10,106 bases of DNA from an uncultured Lachnospiraceae bacterium (GTDB lineage: Bacteria > Bacillota > Clostridia > Lachnospirales > Lachnospiraceae), in assembly GCA_900313265.1 (NCBI GenBank), contig OMRN01000312.1, positions 1 through 10,106 of the forward strand. Direction: 5' to 3'. Shown one piece after another: positions 6,669 to 9,899 of the stretch. The notes beneath the pieces were generated by a model, which ran no database searches, was not told the DNA's origin, and was given only the letters and a program-made list of their open reading frames with translations. The position numbers and the translations under genes are program-made. Each line of letters opens with the position of its first letter. The stretch's first letter is position 1.

Positions 6669-6691
6669 AAACCTATTGACACGATAGGTTT
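6669..6691. promoter_or_regulatory. Palindromic operator overlapping the metY -35 box
   Basis: AAACCTAT (6669-6676) and ATAGGTTT (6684-6691) form a perfect 8+8 inverted repeat around TGACACG. The -35 hexamer TTGACA lies in its centre, so a dimeric protein bound here would exclude RNA polymerase. The convergent Rrf2-family regulator at 9504-9899 is the obvious candidate, by analogy with CymR, the Rrf2 repressor of cysteine genes in Bacillus and Staphylococcus; the assignment is inference. Confidence 0.6.
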
Positions 6692-6705
6692 ATATGTGAT
6701 ATAAA
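6676..6705 (+). promoter_or_regulatory. Promoter of the leader-metY-cysK operon
   Basis: TTGACA (6676-6681) is a consensus -35. After 18 bases comes TATAAA (6700-6705), preceded by TGA, an extended -10 element. Transcription would begin near 6712, about 30 bases before the leader ATG and about 450 before metY. Confidence 0.8.
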
Positions 6706-6742
6706 AAAATGCGTAAGCAAAAAATGAAAGGAGCATGAAGTC

Positions 6743-6859
6743 ATGAAGAACAATCAGTACACGACAATCCGGACCATGTGTTGTTGTATGCGAATGTTAA
6801 ACTCCCGGGCAGGAAAACTGGCGTGGGCGTCTGACATGGCTTGTCATGCGTCCGAATAA
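6743..6859 (+). CDS. Cysteine/methionine leader peptide (regulatory ORF)
   Basis: A 38-codon ORF starts MKNNQYTTIRTMCCCMRM and lies between the operon promoter and a terminator. Codons 12-18 encode Met-Cys-Cys-Cys-Met-Arg-Met, so six of seven residues contain sulfur; another Cys is codon 34, and all four Cys codons are TGT. The ribosome site AAAGGAG (6727-6733) is nine bases from this ATG; an earlier ATG at 6735 is too close to it and gives only a three-residue peptide. Such a clustered run of the amino acids made by the downstream enzymes is the signature of an attenuator leader peptide: ribosomes would stall at 6776-6793 when Cys-tRNA or Met-tRNA is low. The peptide itself probably has no function. 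No similar leader has been named here from memory with confidence, so I give no symbol. Confidence 0.85.
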   Translation: MKNNQYTTIRTMCCCMRMLNSRAGKLAWASDMACHASE

Positions 6860-6896
6860 ACATCATCCTAAAATCAATATGCCAGATGCCCGGGAG
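6802..6896 (+). promoter_or_regulatory. Antiterminator pairing of the metY attenuator
   Basis: CTCCCGGGC at 6802-6810, inside the leader ORF 14 bases after the third Cys codon, is perfectly complementary over nine bases to GCCCGGGAG at 6888-6896, the 5' arm of the terminator. Formation of this pairing excludes the terminator. Between them a further imperfect 12-bp hairpin (6825-6836 with 6842-6853, one mismatch, two G-U pairs) would bring the partners together. A ribosome halted at the Cys run would leave 6802-6810 and the hairpin free; a ribosome moving on through codons 20-38 would disrupt both. Confidence 0.7.
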
Positions 6897-6915
6897 AAAT
6901 CTTCCGGGCATTTTT
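6886..6915 (+). terminator. Attenuator terminator upstream of metY
   Basis: ATGCCCGGGAG (6886-6896) pairs with CTTCCGGGCAT (6901-6911) through 11 bp including one G-U, with a four-base loop AAAT, followed by five U residues. It begins 26 bases after the leader stop and 245 bases before metY, far from any gene it could end other than the leader itself. Confidence 0.85.
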
Positions 6916-7032
6916 CTTCCTCCTCAAACAATGCCACTTTACAAAAAGATGCCCGGAGGGCAGAAAGCAGGCCATTCACTTTTAGTAAAAACGAACGTAA
7001 AGAATCCAAATAAAAAAATAAATCACAAAACG

Positions 7033-7146
7033 AAATAAAATAACAAAATCAACAAAAAACAAACAATAACAAAATCAACAAAAAACAAACAATAACAAAT
7101 AACAAACAACAACAAATAACAAACAATAACAAATAACAAACAAAAA
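7033..7146 (+). repeat. G-free tandem-repeat 5' leader of metY
   Basis: These 114 bases contain no G on the plus strand. They are made of two identical 26-base units (7041-7066 and 7067-7092) followed by three 17-base units (7093-7109, 7110-7126, 7127-7143; the middle one differs at its first base), which run directly into the metY ribosome site AAAAAGGAG. The RNA would be unstructured. The repeat pattern suggests growth by slippage. The piece before it (6916-7032) holds only a third CCCGG-type segment (6949-6959) able to pair with the terminator 3' arm. Confidence 0.85.
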
Positions 7147-7159
7147 GGAGAACAGACCC

Positions 7160-8440
7160 ATGAGCAATTATAAATTCGAAACATTACAGTTACACGTAGG
7201 ACAGGAACAGGCAGATCCCACAACGGACTCCAGAGCGGTACCCATTTATCAGACCACTTCTTATGTATTCCATAACAGCAAGCATGCAGCAGACCGTTTC
7301 GGACTGGCAGATGCCGGAAATATTTACGGAAGACTGACCAACTCCACGCAGGACGTTCTGGAAAAAAGAGTTGCCGCATTAGAGGGAGGAAGCGCAGCTC
7401 TGGCACTTGCTTCCGGAGCAGCCGCCATTACCTATACCATTGAAGCACTTGCCGCAAACGGCGGACATATCGTAGCACAGAAAACCATCTACGGAGGAAG
7501 CTACAATCTCCTCGAGCATACACTTCCCCAGTACGGCATTGAAACCACTTTTGTAAATGCCCATGATCTTTCCGAGGTGGAGGGTGCCATTAAAGAGAAT
7601 ACAAGAGCCATCTATTTAGAGACGCTCGGCAACCCGAATTCCGATATTCCCGATATCGATGCCATCGCGGAAATCGCACATAAGCATGGATTACCGTTAG
7701 TTGTCGACAATACTTTCGGAACTCCCTACTGGTTCAGACCGATTGAGCATGGCGCAGACATTGTGGTTCATTCCGCAACCAAATTCCTCGGCGGTCACGG
7801 AACAACACTTGGTGGAATCATTGTAGAGAGCGGCAAATTCAACTGGAAAGAAAGCGGCAAATATCCGAACATCGCAGCTCCGAATCCCAGCTATCACGGT
7901 GTATCCTTCTATGATGTGGTAGGACCGGCCGCATTCGTTACCTATATCCGTGCCATCCTTCTTCGTGATACCGGAGCCACGATTTCTCCGTTTAACGCAT
8001 TCCTTCTTTTACAGGGTGTGGAAACATTATCGCTTCGTCTCGACCGTCATGCCGAGAATACAAAGAAAGTGATTGAATTTTTGAAGAATCATCCGAAGGT
8101 TGCCAAGGTGAATCATCCTTCGATTGAAAACCATCCGGATCATGCCGTATATCAGAGGTATTTCCCGAACGGAGGCGGTTCGATTTTCACCTTTGAAATC
8201 AAGGGAGGCCAGGAAGAGGCATGGAAGTTCATCGACAATCTGGAGATTTTCTCCCTTCTTGCAAACGTTGCCGATGTAAAGAGCCTTGTCATTCATCCGG
8301 CATCTACGACACATTCCCAGCTGTCCGAAGAAGAACTTGCCGATCAGGGAATTACACCGGGAACCATCCGTCTGTCCATCGGAACGGAGCATATTGACGA
8401 TATTATCGCAGACCTTGAAAAAGGTTTTGCCGCAGTATAA
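7160..8440 (+). CDS. metY: O-acetylhomoserine sulfhydrylase (aminocarboxypropyltransferase)
   Basis: MetY makes homocysteine from O-acetylhomoserine and sulfide, the direct sulfhydrylation route to methionine. It is a PLP enzyme of the Cys/Met metabolism family; its 426 residues match the MetY length and exceed the roughly 380-400 of cystathionine synthases and lyases. Visible signatures are NIYGRLTNST (residues 54-63, cofactor phosphate contacts from the neighbouring subunit), LASGAAAI, the PLP-ring aspartate in VVDNTF (Asp183), and the Schiff-base lysine in HSATKFLGGHG (Lys208). The ribosome site AAGGAG (7145-7150) is nine bases from the ATG. The protein has no cysteine and only the initiator methionine. 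It is first in an operon with cysK and is controlled by the operator, leader peptide and attenuator upstream. Some homologs also use O-acetylserine, so a minor cysteine synthase activity is possible. Confidence 0.95.
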   Translation: MSNYKFETLQLHVGQEQADPTTDSRAVPIYQTTSYVFHNSKHAADRFGLADAGNIYGRLTNSTQDVLEKRVAALEGGSAALALASGAAAITYTIEALAANGGHIVAQKTIYGGSYNLLEHTLPQYGIETTFVNAHDLSEVEGAIKENTRAIYLETLGNPNSDIPDIDAIAEIAHKHGLPLVVDNTFGTPYWFRPIEHGADIVVHSATKFLGGHGTTLGGIIVESGKFNWKESGKYPNIAAPNPSYHGVSFYDVVGPAAFVTYIRAILLRDTGATISPFNAFLLLQGVETLSLRLDRHAENTKKVIEFLKNHPKVAKVNHPSIENHPDHAVYQRYFPNGGGSIFTFEIKGGQEEAWKFIDNLEIFSLLANVADVKSLVIHPASTTHSQLSEEELADQGITPGTIRLSIGTEHIDDIIADLEKGFAAV

Positions 8441-8465: not shown

Positions 8466-9398
8466 ATGTCTAAAATTTACAAAAACGCATCGGAACTTAT
8501 CGGAAATACCCCTTTGGTAGAGGTTAGCAACATTGAGAAAGAACTGGGACTGAAAGCGACCGTTTTGGTTAAGCTCGAATACTTTAATCCCGCAGGAAGC
8601 GTAAAGGACCGTATCGCCAAGGCCATGATCGAAGATGCCGAGAAAAAGGGTCTTTTGAAGGAAGGCAGTGTTATTATCGAGCCGACATCGGGAAATACGG
8701 GAATCGGTCTTGCTTCCATCGCCGCCGCAAAGGGCTATCGGATTATTCTGACCATGCCCGAGACCATGAGCGTGGAGAGAAGAAATATCTTAAAGGCATA
8801 CGGCGCGGAACTTGTGCTTACGGAAGGCTCGAAGGGAATGAAGGGAGCCATTGCCAAAGCGGAAGAACTTGCGGCTGAAATTCCGGGAAGCTTTATTCCG
8901 GGACAGTTTGTAAATCCCGCAAACCCGGCCATCCATAAAGCGACCACCGGTCCGGAAATCTGGGCGGATACGGACGGAAAAGTGGATATCTTCATTGCCG
9001 GTGTAGGTACCGGAGGAACCGTAACCGGTACGGGCGAATATTTAAAAGAGCAGAATCCGAATGTGAAAGTGGTTGCCTTAGAGCCCGCGGATTCACCGGT
9101 TCTTTCCGAAGGAAGAGCGGGAGCACATAAGATTCAGGGAATCGGTGCCGGATTTGTACCCGATGTTCTCAATACGAAAGTTTATGACGAAGTTTTCAAA
9201 GCGGCAAACGAGGATGCTTTTGCAGCGGCAAAACTTTTGGCAAAGAAAGAGGGAATCTCCGTCGGAATTTCTTCCGGAGCGGCTTTACACGGAGCAATCG
9301 AACTCGCAAAGAGACCGGAAAACGAAGGAAAGATTATCGTAGCACTTCTTCCGGACAGCGGTGACCGTTATTATTCTACCGCACTCTTTACCGAATAA
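8466..9398 (+). CDS. cysK: Cysteine synthase A (O-acetylserine sulfhydrylase)
   Basis: CysK joins sulfide to O-acetylserine to make cysteine, using PLP. The 310-residue length is typical. The Schiff-base lysine is Lys47 in NPAGSVKDR; the substrate-binding TSGNTG is at residues 74-79; the cofactor phosphate loop GTGGT is at 181-185; SSGAA near residue 268 and the final [10 protein letters not shown] complete the family pattern. The ribosome site GGAGG (8453-8457) is eight bases from the ATG, and the gene starts 25 bases after metY, so they share a transcript. The enzyme contains no cysteine and only four internal methionines. In Bacillus, CysK also serves as the partner of the Rrf2 repressor CymR when O-acetylserine is low; the convergent Rrf2 gene here makes a similar link plausible but unproven. 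Confidence 0.95.
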
Positions 9399-9503: not shown

Positions 9504-9899
9504 CTACAGCATGTCCTTCAGCGTGAACTGCTCGAAGTATTCCCGGGTCAGGTTATCATACCCCTCCCATAATCCGATGGTTTTGCATTCGTCTTTTCTG
9601 GGGCAGAGTTCCGCATTCTTGGCAAGACATGCCACGGGAGCCAGATTCTCCTCGGTGCAGTCTAAAATTTCCCAGACCGTGTACTCTTCCGGCTTGCGGC
9701 TTAACATATATCCGCCGCCTTTGCCGCGGTGGCCCTTAACCATTTTGTTGCGGACCAGGGTCTTTATAATAATCTCCAGATACTTCTCGGAAATCCCCTG
9801 CCGTAACGCAATATCATGCAGCGGAACAAACGTATCCTCTTTCTGCCCGGCTAAATCAATCATTACCCTGAGCGCATATCGTCCTTTTGTGGAAATCAT
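9504..9899 (-). CDS. Rrf2-family transcriptional regulator (CymR/IscR-like)
   Basis: This 131-residue protein has the Rrf2 winged-helix layout: MISTKGRYALRVMIDLA at the N-terminus, the recognition region ISEKYLEIIIKTLVRNKMV (about 36-54), and the wing RGKGGGYML (58-66). Four cysteines follow: C81, C91, C99 and C105. The spacing C91-x7-C99-x5-C105 resembles the [2Fe-2S] ligands of IscR (C-x5-C-x5-C) but is not identical, and the histidine ligand is not evident. CymR of Bacillus lacks such a trio. So it may sense Fe-S or redox state, or act as a CymR-like cysteine repressor using CysK. Its position facing cysK and the palindrome on the metY promoter favour a role in sulfur control. The ribosome site AGGAGG (9905-9910 on the minus strand) supports the ATG at 9899. 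Confidence 0.9.
   Translation of the reverse strand: MISTKGRYALRVMIDLAGQKEDTFVPLHDIALRQGISEKYLEIIIKTLVRNKMVKGHRGKGGGYMLSRKPEEYTVWEILDCTEENLAPVACLAKNAELCPRKDECKTIGLWEGYDNLTREYFEQFTLKDML

Follow-up and report, generated by a model that had tools for sequence, protein, structure and literature searches.

A predicted cysteine-codon leader attenuator upstream of metY-cysK in a Lachnospiraceae bacterium and its recurrence before cysteine and methionine genes of Clostridia

The region upstream of metY-cysK in the window (the whole stretch of 10,106 nucleotides analysed here) very probably holds a ribosome-mediated attenuator of transcription, responsive to charged Cys-tRNA and common to a cysteine/methionine regulon of Clostridia. 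Firmicutes are thought to control their cysteine and methionine genes by T-boxes, SAM riboswitches and CymR, and the leader-peptide attenuators of the trp, his and leu operons are the classical mechanism in Proteobacteria. The sequence basis of our reading consists of a leader, its conserved frame, its codon bias, a terminator, a covarying antiterminator, the spacing of these parts and the set of genes that follow them, and from these we infer which signal acts, that ribosomes stall and polymerase reads through, and in what order.

The leader peptide ORF (6743..6859, + strand) comprises 38 codons, encodes MKNNQYTTIRTMCCCMRMLNSRAGKLAWASDMACHASE and has a frame that is conserved in the family. 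Its translation agrees with the initial annotation, which had described a 38-codon ORF with three consecutive Cys codons between Met codons: Met-Cys-Cys-Cys-Met-Arg-Met corresponds to 6776-6796, and the presumed regulatory codons ATG TGT TGT TGT ATG (Met-Cys-Cys-Cys-Met; 6776..6790, +) are of the two kinds, Cys and Met, that are enriched in the family. The ribosome site reported ahead of the leader is the Shine-Dalgarno sequence AAAGGAG (6727..6733, +). A promoter had been claimed as well, and one is plausible from the sequence, with a -35 hexamer TTGACA (6676-6681, +), an 18-base spacer and a probable -10 box TATAAA (6700..6705, +) that ends 37 bases 5' of the leader start codon, although a consensus scan listed none, as its rule demands T as the final -10 base. 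ATGTGYTGYTGY occurs once in the source assembly (2.24 Mb, 73% complete), and the region 6700-6920 folds 4.4 sd below its shuffles, none of 200 being as low. The first gene after the element is metY (7160..8440, +), coding for an O-acetylhomoserine/O-acetylserine sulfhydrylase (PF01053; TIGR01326 above cut-off), and the second (8466..9398, +) codes for a cysK-like cysteine synthase (PF00291; the name cysK was taken over from the initial annotation). The interval between the terminator and metY contains long A-rich repeats of the AACAAA/AATAAC type, poor in G and T (7010-7145), perhaps an unstructured landing zone for ribosomes.

An intrinsic terminator hairpin with a 13-bp stem and a 4-base loop, followed by a T-rich tail, is present at 6884..6913 (+) as previously proposed, but it starts 24 bases after the leader stop and ends 246 before metY instead of 26 and 245. 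What had been overlooked is the antiterminator, i.e., the pairing of segments B and E together with inner helices. Segment B, the 5' arm of the antiterminator according to alignment, covariation and folding, is CTCCCGGGCA (6802..6811, +) and is exactly complementary to TGCCCGGGAG (segment E, 6887..6896, +) within the terminator 5' arm, a shared arm that pairs either with B or with the terminator 3' arm F. The B:E helix has 10 bp in the window and is extended by an inner helix, with CTGGCGT on its 5' side (6818..6824, +; folded structure, covarying helix 2) and ATGCCAG on its 3' side (6879..6885, +; folded structure), so that the window has CTGGC:GCCAG where the family consensus is ATGGC:GCCAT. 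Hairpin C:D (GGGCGT...GCGTCC; 6825..6853, +; folding, covarying helix 3) lies in the antiterminator loop. Segment A, CGAATG (6791..6796, +; CGA in 31/31 rows), is a conserved spacer that would lie beneath a ribosome stalled on the codon run and may also pair with bases 3' of segment C. Segment B begins 11 bases past the codon run and 14 past the last Cys codon, and the plain fold of the region in the window gives the terminator rather than the antiterminator.

It is the position of segment B relative to a stalled or an advancing ribosome that points to ribosome-mediated transcription attenuation. With enough cysteine, the ribosome would pass the Cys codons and cover B while RNA polymerase makes E and F; with B covered, the terminator E:F would form and transcription would stop before metY. 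Under a shortage of Cys-tRNA, the ribosome would halt with a Cys codon in its A site and its leading edge would end before B, which would then be free to pair with E, prevent the terminator and allow metY-cysK to be transcribed. In the window the antiterminator would have to form first, before F exists, and folding of the RNA before F allows this.

In order to look beyond the window, metY loci were collected by the MetY protein alone and the best 80 of 576 were kept. The core CGAATG-N5-CTC(C/T)CGGG was found within 700 bases 5' of metY in 31 of these best 80. Among the remaining 49 of the best 80, neither a loose core (up to 5 mismatches) nor the E arm (C/T)CCGGGAG was detected at any locus (0/49 for both; L100 has only 217 upstream bases), while the E arm was present in all 29 named metY loci that yielded an alignment row. 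Genome G120, of the same genus and rated 100% complete, has MFGNYVNLTTEYMCCCRMQYSRACNLAGAFD at the corresponding position ahead of metY and shares the core and the terminator arm with the window. With separate peptide and terminator definitions, 25 of the best 80 of 576 loci had both leader and terminator, 11 the leader only, four the terminator only and 40 neither (Fisher p 2e-8), and when any terminator-like hairpin no more than 350 nt from metY was counted, 30/31 core loci had one vs. 17/49 others of the same best 80. Judged by the identical arrangement in G120 and the core in 31 of the best 80 of 576 loci, the presence of leader and terminator at metY exceeds chance. The comparison of relatives that the initial annotation had proposed thus turned out in its favor, as the Cys-codon leader, its reading frame and the terminator co-occur upstream of metY, and its attenuator ahead of metY-cysK is supported, the coreless loci being devoid of the terminator arm.

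The 38-aa leader protein gave mostly weak matches in 150 family genomes, and at least five of the 30 loci fetched from this search hold the element (the window, L004, L015, L021, and L022, the last coinciding with a family hit of the covariance model; L015 is the same site as L124 and was dropped). The pattern CGNATG-N5-CTCCCGGGC had 37 sites in 33/397 family genomes; nine of ten fetched sites with CGC or CGG fell in ordinary genes, L134 alone being a leader, and one CGA site (L131) was not a leader either. A different Cys-rich leader, MSYALINKSYEYMCSNRMCCCRIGSCRMCCCDMCNDCID, is located about 90-207 bases before metY at L098, together with the promoter palindrome described below but with no B core and no evident terminator. 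Cysteine is nearly absent from MetY itself: the 80 metY genes of L033-L112, each about 427 codons long, have 6 Cys codons between them.

Reading frame and codon usage were examined in 110 elements, namely the 29 named metY loci and 81 covariance-model hits; L199, L220, L226, and L227, which have no anchor, are absent from this set. A start codon with a Shine-Dalgarno site of at least four matches was found in the leader frame of 106/110 elements, vs. 4 and 9 in the other frames, so that a translatable short ORF is predicted almost throughout. The five codons before CGA (550 in the 110 elements) include 227 Cys codons (198 TGT and 29 TGC), 137 ATG, 18 TGG (Trp) and only 2 TTG/CTG/GTG, the latter figure having led us to reject the reading of the run as mere UG-rich RNA. 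For comparison, the long ORFs of the core loci, spurious frames included, contain 873 TGC vs. 433 TGT, and CGA is their rarest Arg codon. In 104/110 elements the eight codons that precede the anchor include at least one for Cys, and the leaders of the other six, which were anchored too early, hold Cys as well. Many leaders across the family end in Arg-Cys-stop, an extra Cys codon at the stop.

These data bear on two other explanations of the element. One is that it acts as a riboswitch or a protein-binding RNA, with the ORF as a mere bystander, a view favored by CGAATG-N5-CTC(C/T)CGGG being nearly invariant in its bases before different genes in several families. This is very unlikely indeed, for a start codon with a Shine-Dalgarno site of at least five matches is kept in the leader frame of 96/110 elements vs. 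2 and 1 in the other frames, the Cys codons differ in number by entire codons and may be either TGT or TGC, and neither the window nor 60 loci had any Rfam match of this kind. The other is an arrest peptide, in which the nascent chain and a bound metabolite, instead of a shortage of charged tRNA, would stall the ribosome. The conserved residues R-M-x-x-S-R-A of the leaders speak for it, but they lie at or after the codon run and not before it, where no residue at codons -8 to -6 exceeds 13/57 strict hits, and leaders differ in how many Cys codons they have (1 to 5). Moreover, the conserved residues hold to one codon (CGA, TCC or TCT, and CGG in 31 rows) although alternatives were allowed, CGA being kept in 31/31 aligned rows where any CGN codon would have been accepted, which points to the RNA; we regard an arrest peptide as very unlikely. 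CGAATG is conserved beyond what spacing needs.

Covariation of the helices was assessed in an alignment of 47 elements, from which L119, L134, and L141 (3/52 rows) were left out as they are without the CCGGGAG arm, and L057 for its very short spacing (it was kept in the folding of 48 loci described below). In this alignment 90.2% of the antiterminator cells were paired, vs. 86.4 in shuffled and at most 49.4 in slid alignments, and 40 cells were doubly changed vs. 16.0 in shuffles, a value that none of 500 shuffles reached. Helices 2 and 3, neither of which was used in selecting the members, showed two-sided changes in 10 of their 12 pairs, and helix 1 (B:E) is nearly invariant; the way in which members were selected accounts in part for the constancy of helix 1 and of the N5 spacing, since the CTCCCGGGC pattern was used for some loci and CCGGGAG for the arm. 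An antiterminator that would exclude the terminator is thereby predicted with covariation on its side. The terminator helix (84.2% of cells paired) did no better than shuffles because segment E barely varies. A further hairpin, A-B:C-C', which would hide B, is possible: 79.9% of its cells were paired, against at most 49.0 when slid, but 12/500 shuffles matched its pairing and 3/500 its covariation score, and a single pair changes on both sides. We discarded a pairing of CGAATG with CATTTG ahead of the E arm, as some members have CATATG instead, and set aside the likeness of TGTCGAATG to a tRNA T-loop as coincidence. A constitutive terminator placed after a small functional peptide and without any regulation would be consistent with the strength of the terminator in the window, yet a B:E complement with covarying flanks just outside the stalled ribosome would then be useless, and the gene set belongs mostly to one pathway; we regard this as extremely improbable.

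The attenuator reading was also modelled by folding 48 loci with a ribosome footprint, assumed to reach 16 bases upstream and 12 downstream of the first A-site base. Without a ribosome the mean antiterminator probability was 0.56 and the antiterminator was favored in 29/48 loci, a preference that would not hold where the hairpin A-B:C-C' masks B. It rose to 0.67-0.73 when any of codons -6 to -1 occupied the A site (0.73 at -1, where 35/48 loci exceeded 0.5), fell to 0.36 at CGA and 0.07 at the following ATG, and was 0.00 from +2 to +10, where the terminator reached 0.81-0.83. The last codons of the run are therefore so placed that a ribosome on them stops just short of B. At +12 and beyond, B was uncovered again and the antiterminator came back (0.39 at +12 and 0.52 at +13), so that termination would require the terminator to form while B is still under the ribosome. 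Before F exists, B:E formed in 47/48 loci with B free and in 0/48 with a ribosome at +3 or +8. In the model, a stall at the regulatory codons would free the antiterminator and passage would cover B. For the window, the stalled state at equilibrium gave 0.83 for the terminator vs. 0.17 for the antiterminator, and hence the order of synthesis must decide there.

The initial annotation had one leader sampling both Cys-tRNA and Met-tRNA, which holds at the codon level only (227 Cys and 137 ATG of the 550 codons). If the leader senses methionine too, stalls on either Met or Cys codons before CGA would release B, and in the folding a stall at any of codons -6 to -2 is almost as effective in releasing B as one at -1. 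The 137 ATG set against 2 TTG/CTG/GTG, the recurrence of MCMCMCRM, MCMRM, and MMCMCQMMCRM, and the MetQ- and MetN-like genes among the targets are all compatible with this, as are the means in the eight codons before CGA, which are 1.88 Met and 2.73 Cys in 26 ABC-transport leaders vs. 1.34 and 1.95 in 41 PLP-enzyme leaders. On the other hand, Cys exceeds Met at the two last codons before CGA (91 vs. 14 of 114 places in the 57 strict hits), the excess of Met could serve another end, and a stall at the ATG after CGA would cover part of B. We consider a methionine response possible but lean against it, and retain the sensing of Cys-tRNA as the preferred reading.

The covariance model found 67 places in 52/397 family genomes (source genome included), 20 places in 13/391 genomes of a class sample, and matches in 3/348 genomes of a phylum sample. 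Eleven of the 13 matched genomes in the class sample belong to four other families, seven of these 11 to one genus, and one phylum-sample match is outside the class, where it precedes metY and has the leader MTGFSKLCCCCRMTFSRAFNMARRFDIA. The downstream genes were surveyed at 85 of 88 model matches (L154 and L146, weak, opposite strand, and L184, the same site as L207, were dropped), taking the first ORF of at least 80 residues and naming domains from cluster representatives. At these 85 sites, 43 first ORFs fall in a cluster of Cys/Met PLP enzymes (MetY/MetB type) and 28 are parts of ABC transporters (20 in a solute-binding-protein cluster, one single, 5 permease-like, and 2 ABC ATPases), and there are one CysK and one protein with a GCS2 domain (glutamate-cysteine-ligase-like). 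In all, 73/85 are Cys/Met PLP enzymes, amino-acid or methionine ABC parts, CysK or glutamate-cysteine-ligase-like, functions assigned by likeness in that the MetQ, MetN, cystine-binding, and glutamate-cysteine-ligase NCBIfam models matched below their cut-offs. Four related proteins follow the elements at L164, L196, L206, and L214; the two tested (L164 and L206) have a GST C-terminal domain and that of L206 has no NCBIfam match. The other eight are a cyclase, a PFL-like protein, an SDR, a LysR, an M20 peptidase, a JAB, a nitrogenase-like protein, and one without a match. The GCS2 protein of L173 is the first long ORF after a strong element (E 3e-29), about 500 bases downstream; it and the first ORFs of L164, L226, and L174 (the last without a Pfam match) need not be regulated, as they start 263-535 bases past the element, and L225 (E 0.003, nitrogenase-like next gene) may be a false hit. 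At L160, L192, and L199 the element is followed by a fused substrate-binding protein, SBP_bac_3 and then NlpA (MetQ type), which may serve two substrates with a single chain.

The element thus appears to serve a Cys/Met regulon in Clostridia that extends beyond metY and had been overlooked in the initial annotation, and its codons match the amino acid that the operon makes or imports. With one core common to different operons, the element gives the impression of a module, either reused or moved. More speculatively, a single module reading Cys-tRNA and Met-tRNA in one run, spread by descent or transfer through Clostridia, might govern the whole sulfur-amino-acid regulon, its CGAAUG-N5-CUC(C/U)CGGG core being perhaps recognised by a further factor or tuned to the ribosome. 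We think this rather unlikely; if true, a single-module regulon would span biosynthesis, cystine and methionine import, and a glutamate-cysteine-ligase-like enzyme.

Also overlooked was a palindrome over the -35 box, CCTATTGACACGATAGG (CCTA-N9-TAGG; 6672..6688, +), which overlaps the TTGACA hexamer and is a candidate operator, perhaps of an Rrf2-family repressor. A gene of this family adjoins the operon (9504-9899, - strand) and does not reach the cut-offs of the CymR and IscR models. Within 600 nt before metY, CCTA-N7..10-TAGG was found in 25/31 core loci and 17/49 others of the best 80 of 576; in its form with GAC it was located 264-478 nt before metY in 24/31 core loci and 66-272 nt before it in 12/49 coreless loci, i.e., among these best 80 of 576, coreless loci have the palindrome closer to metY than core loci do. 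Matches to the Rrf2 protein by tblastn (E up to 1e-5, some weak or partial) occurred at 13/31 core loci and 16/49 others of the same best 80 of 576. A second control at the DNA level is probable, with a repressor acting at initiation and the attenuator afterwards, and CymR-like repression may act additionally through the promoter palindrome.

No T-box or SAM riboswitch was found in the window with Rfam at E up to 1, in agreement with the initial annotation, nor at the gathering thresholds in 49 coreless and 11 core metY loci, where the only matches were a purine riboswitch (L081) and a tRNA (L092); control of the element by either class was consequently discarded. Likewise, eight leaders, that of L098 included, had no match in NCBIfam. 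The element shares with the trp/his/leu attenuators of Proteobacteria a short leader ORF with codons of the pathway and an arm common to antiterminator and terminator, but differs in its Cys (and Met) codons, its occurrence in Clostridia and its single core before many different genes.

The earlier suggestion of a new regulatory class is too strong, as attenuation by leader peptides is long established and Cys leaders have been described for Actinobacteria (PMC1262725) and for cysS of Rhodobacterales (PMC8632094). In Actinobacteria, Cys-codon leaders were predicted before cys genes, in Mycobacterium without a conserved terminator hairpin (PMC1262725), and work on mycobacterial Cys leaders is attributed to Canestrari 2020 in PMC9031893 and PMC13236596, the one of M. 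smegmatis being leaderless (PMC9031893). Runs of consecutive Cys codons are shared with these polycysteine sORFs, but our elements do not appear to be leaderless, with a Shine-Dalgarno site in 106/110, and have an intrinsic terminator and an antiterminator. uORFC-8-2 before cysS in Rhodobacterales, for which attenuation was proposed (PMC8632094), likewise combines tandem Cys codons in a uORF with an intrinsic terminator. It is confined to cysS and dominated by UGC, whereas the present element occurs in Clostridia before metY, metB, cysK, and transporters with UGU dominant, and no CysS was assigned among the tested representatives of the 85 downstream ORFs. Leader-peptide attenuators are also described in Firmicutes, as the His leaders of bacilli, which use histidine and precede hisS and hisZ (PMC2965389). 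The CymR (Rrf2) cysteine regulon of Firmicutes overlaps in its genes (cysK, cystine uptake), but CymR is a DNA-binding repressor (PMC3828012). The main texts of PMC11109978 and PMC6429828 do not mention cysteine, cysK, metY or a leader peptide. No record of the element family was found in Rfam, NCBIfam or the literature searched, and no report of a Cys leader in Clostridia or Lachnospiraceae in that literature, where subscription papers are thinly covered and absence from print is unproven.

A leader attenuator of the trp type therefore appears to run cysteine and methionine genes in many Clostridia. The covariance model leads to sulfur-amino-acid genes, and the element offers a candidate cysteine sensor for gut and rumen bacteria.
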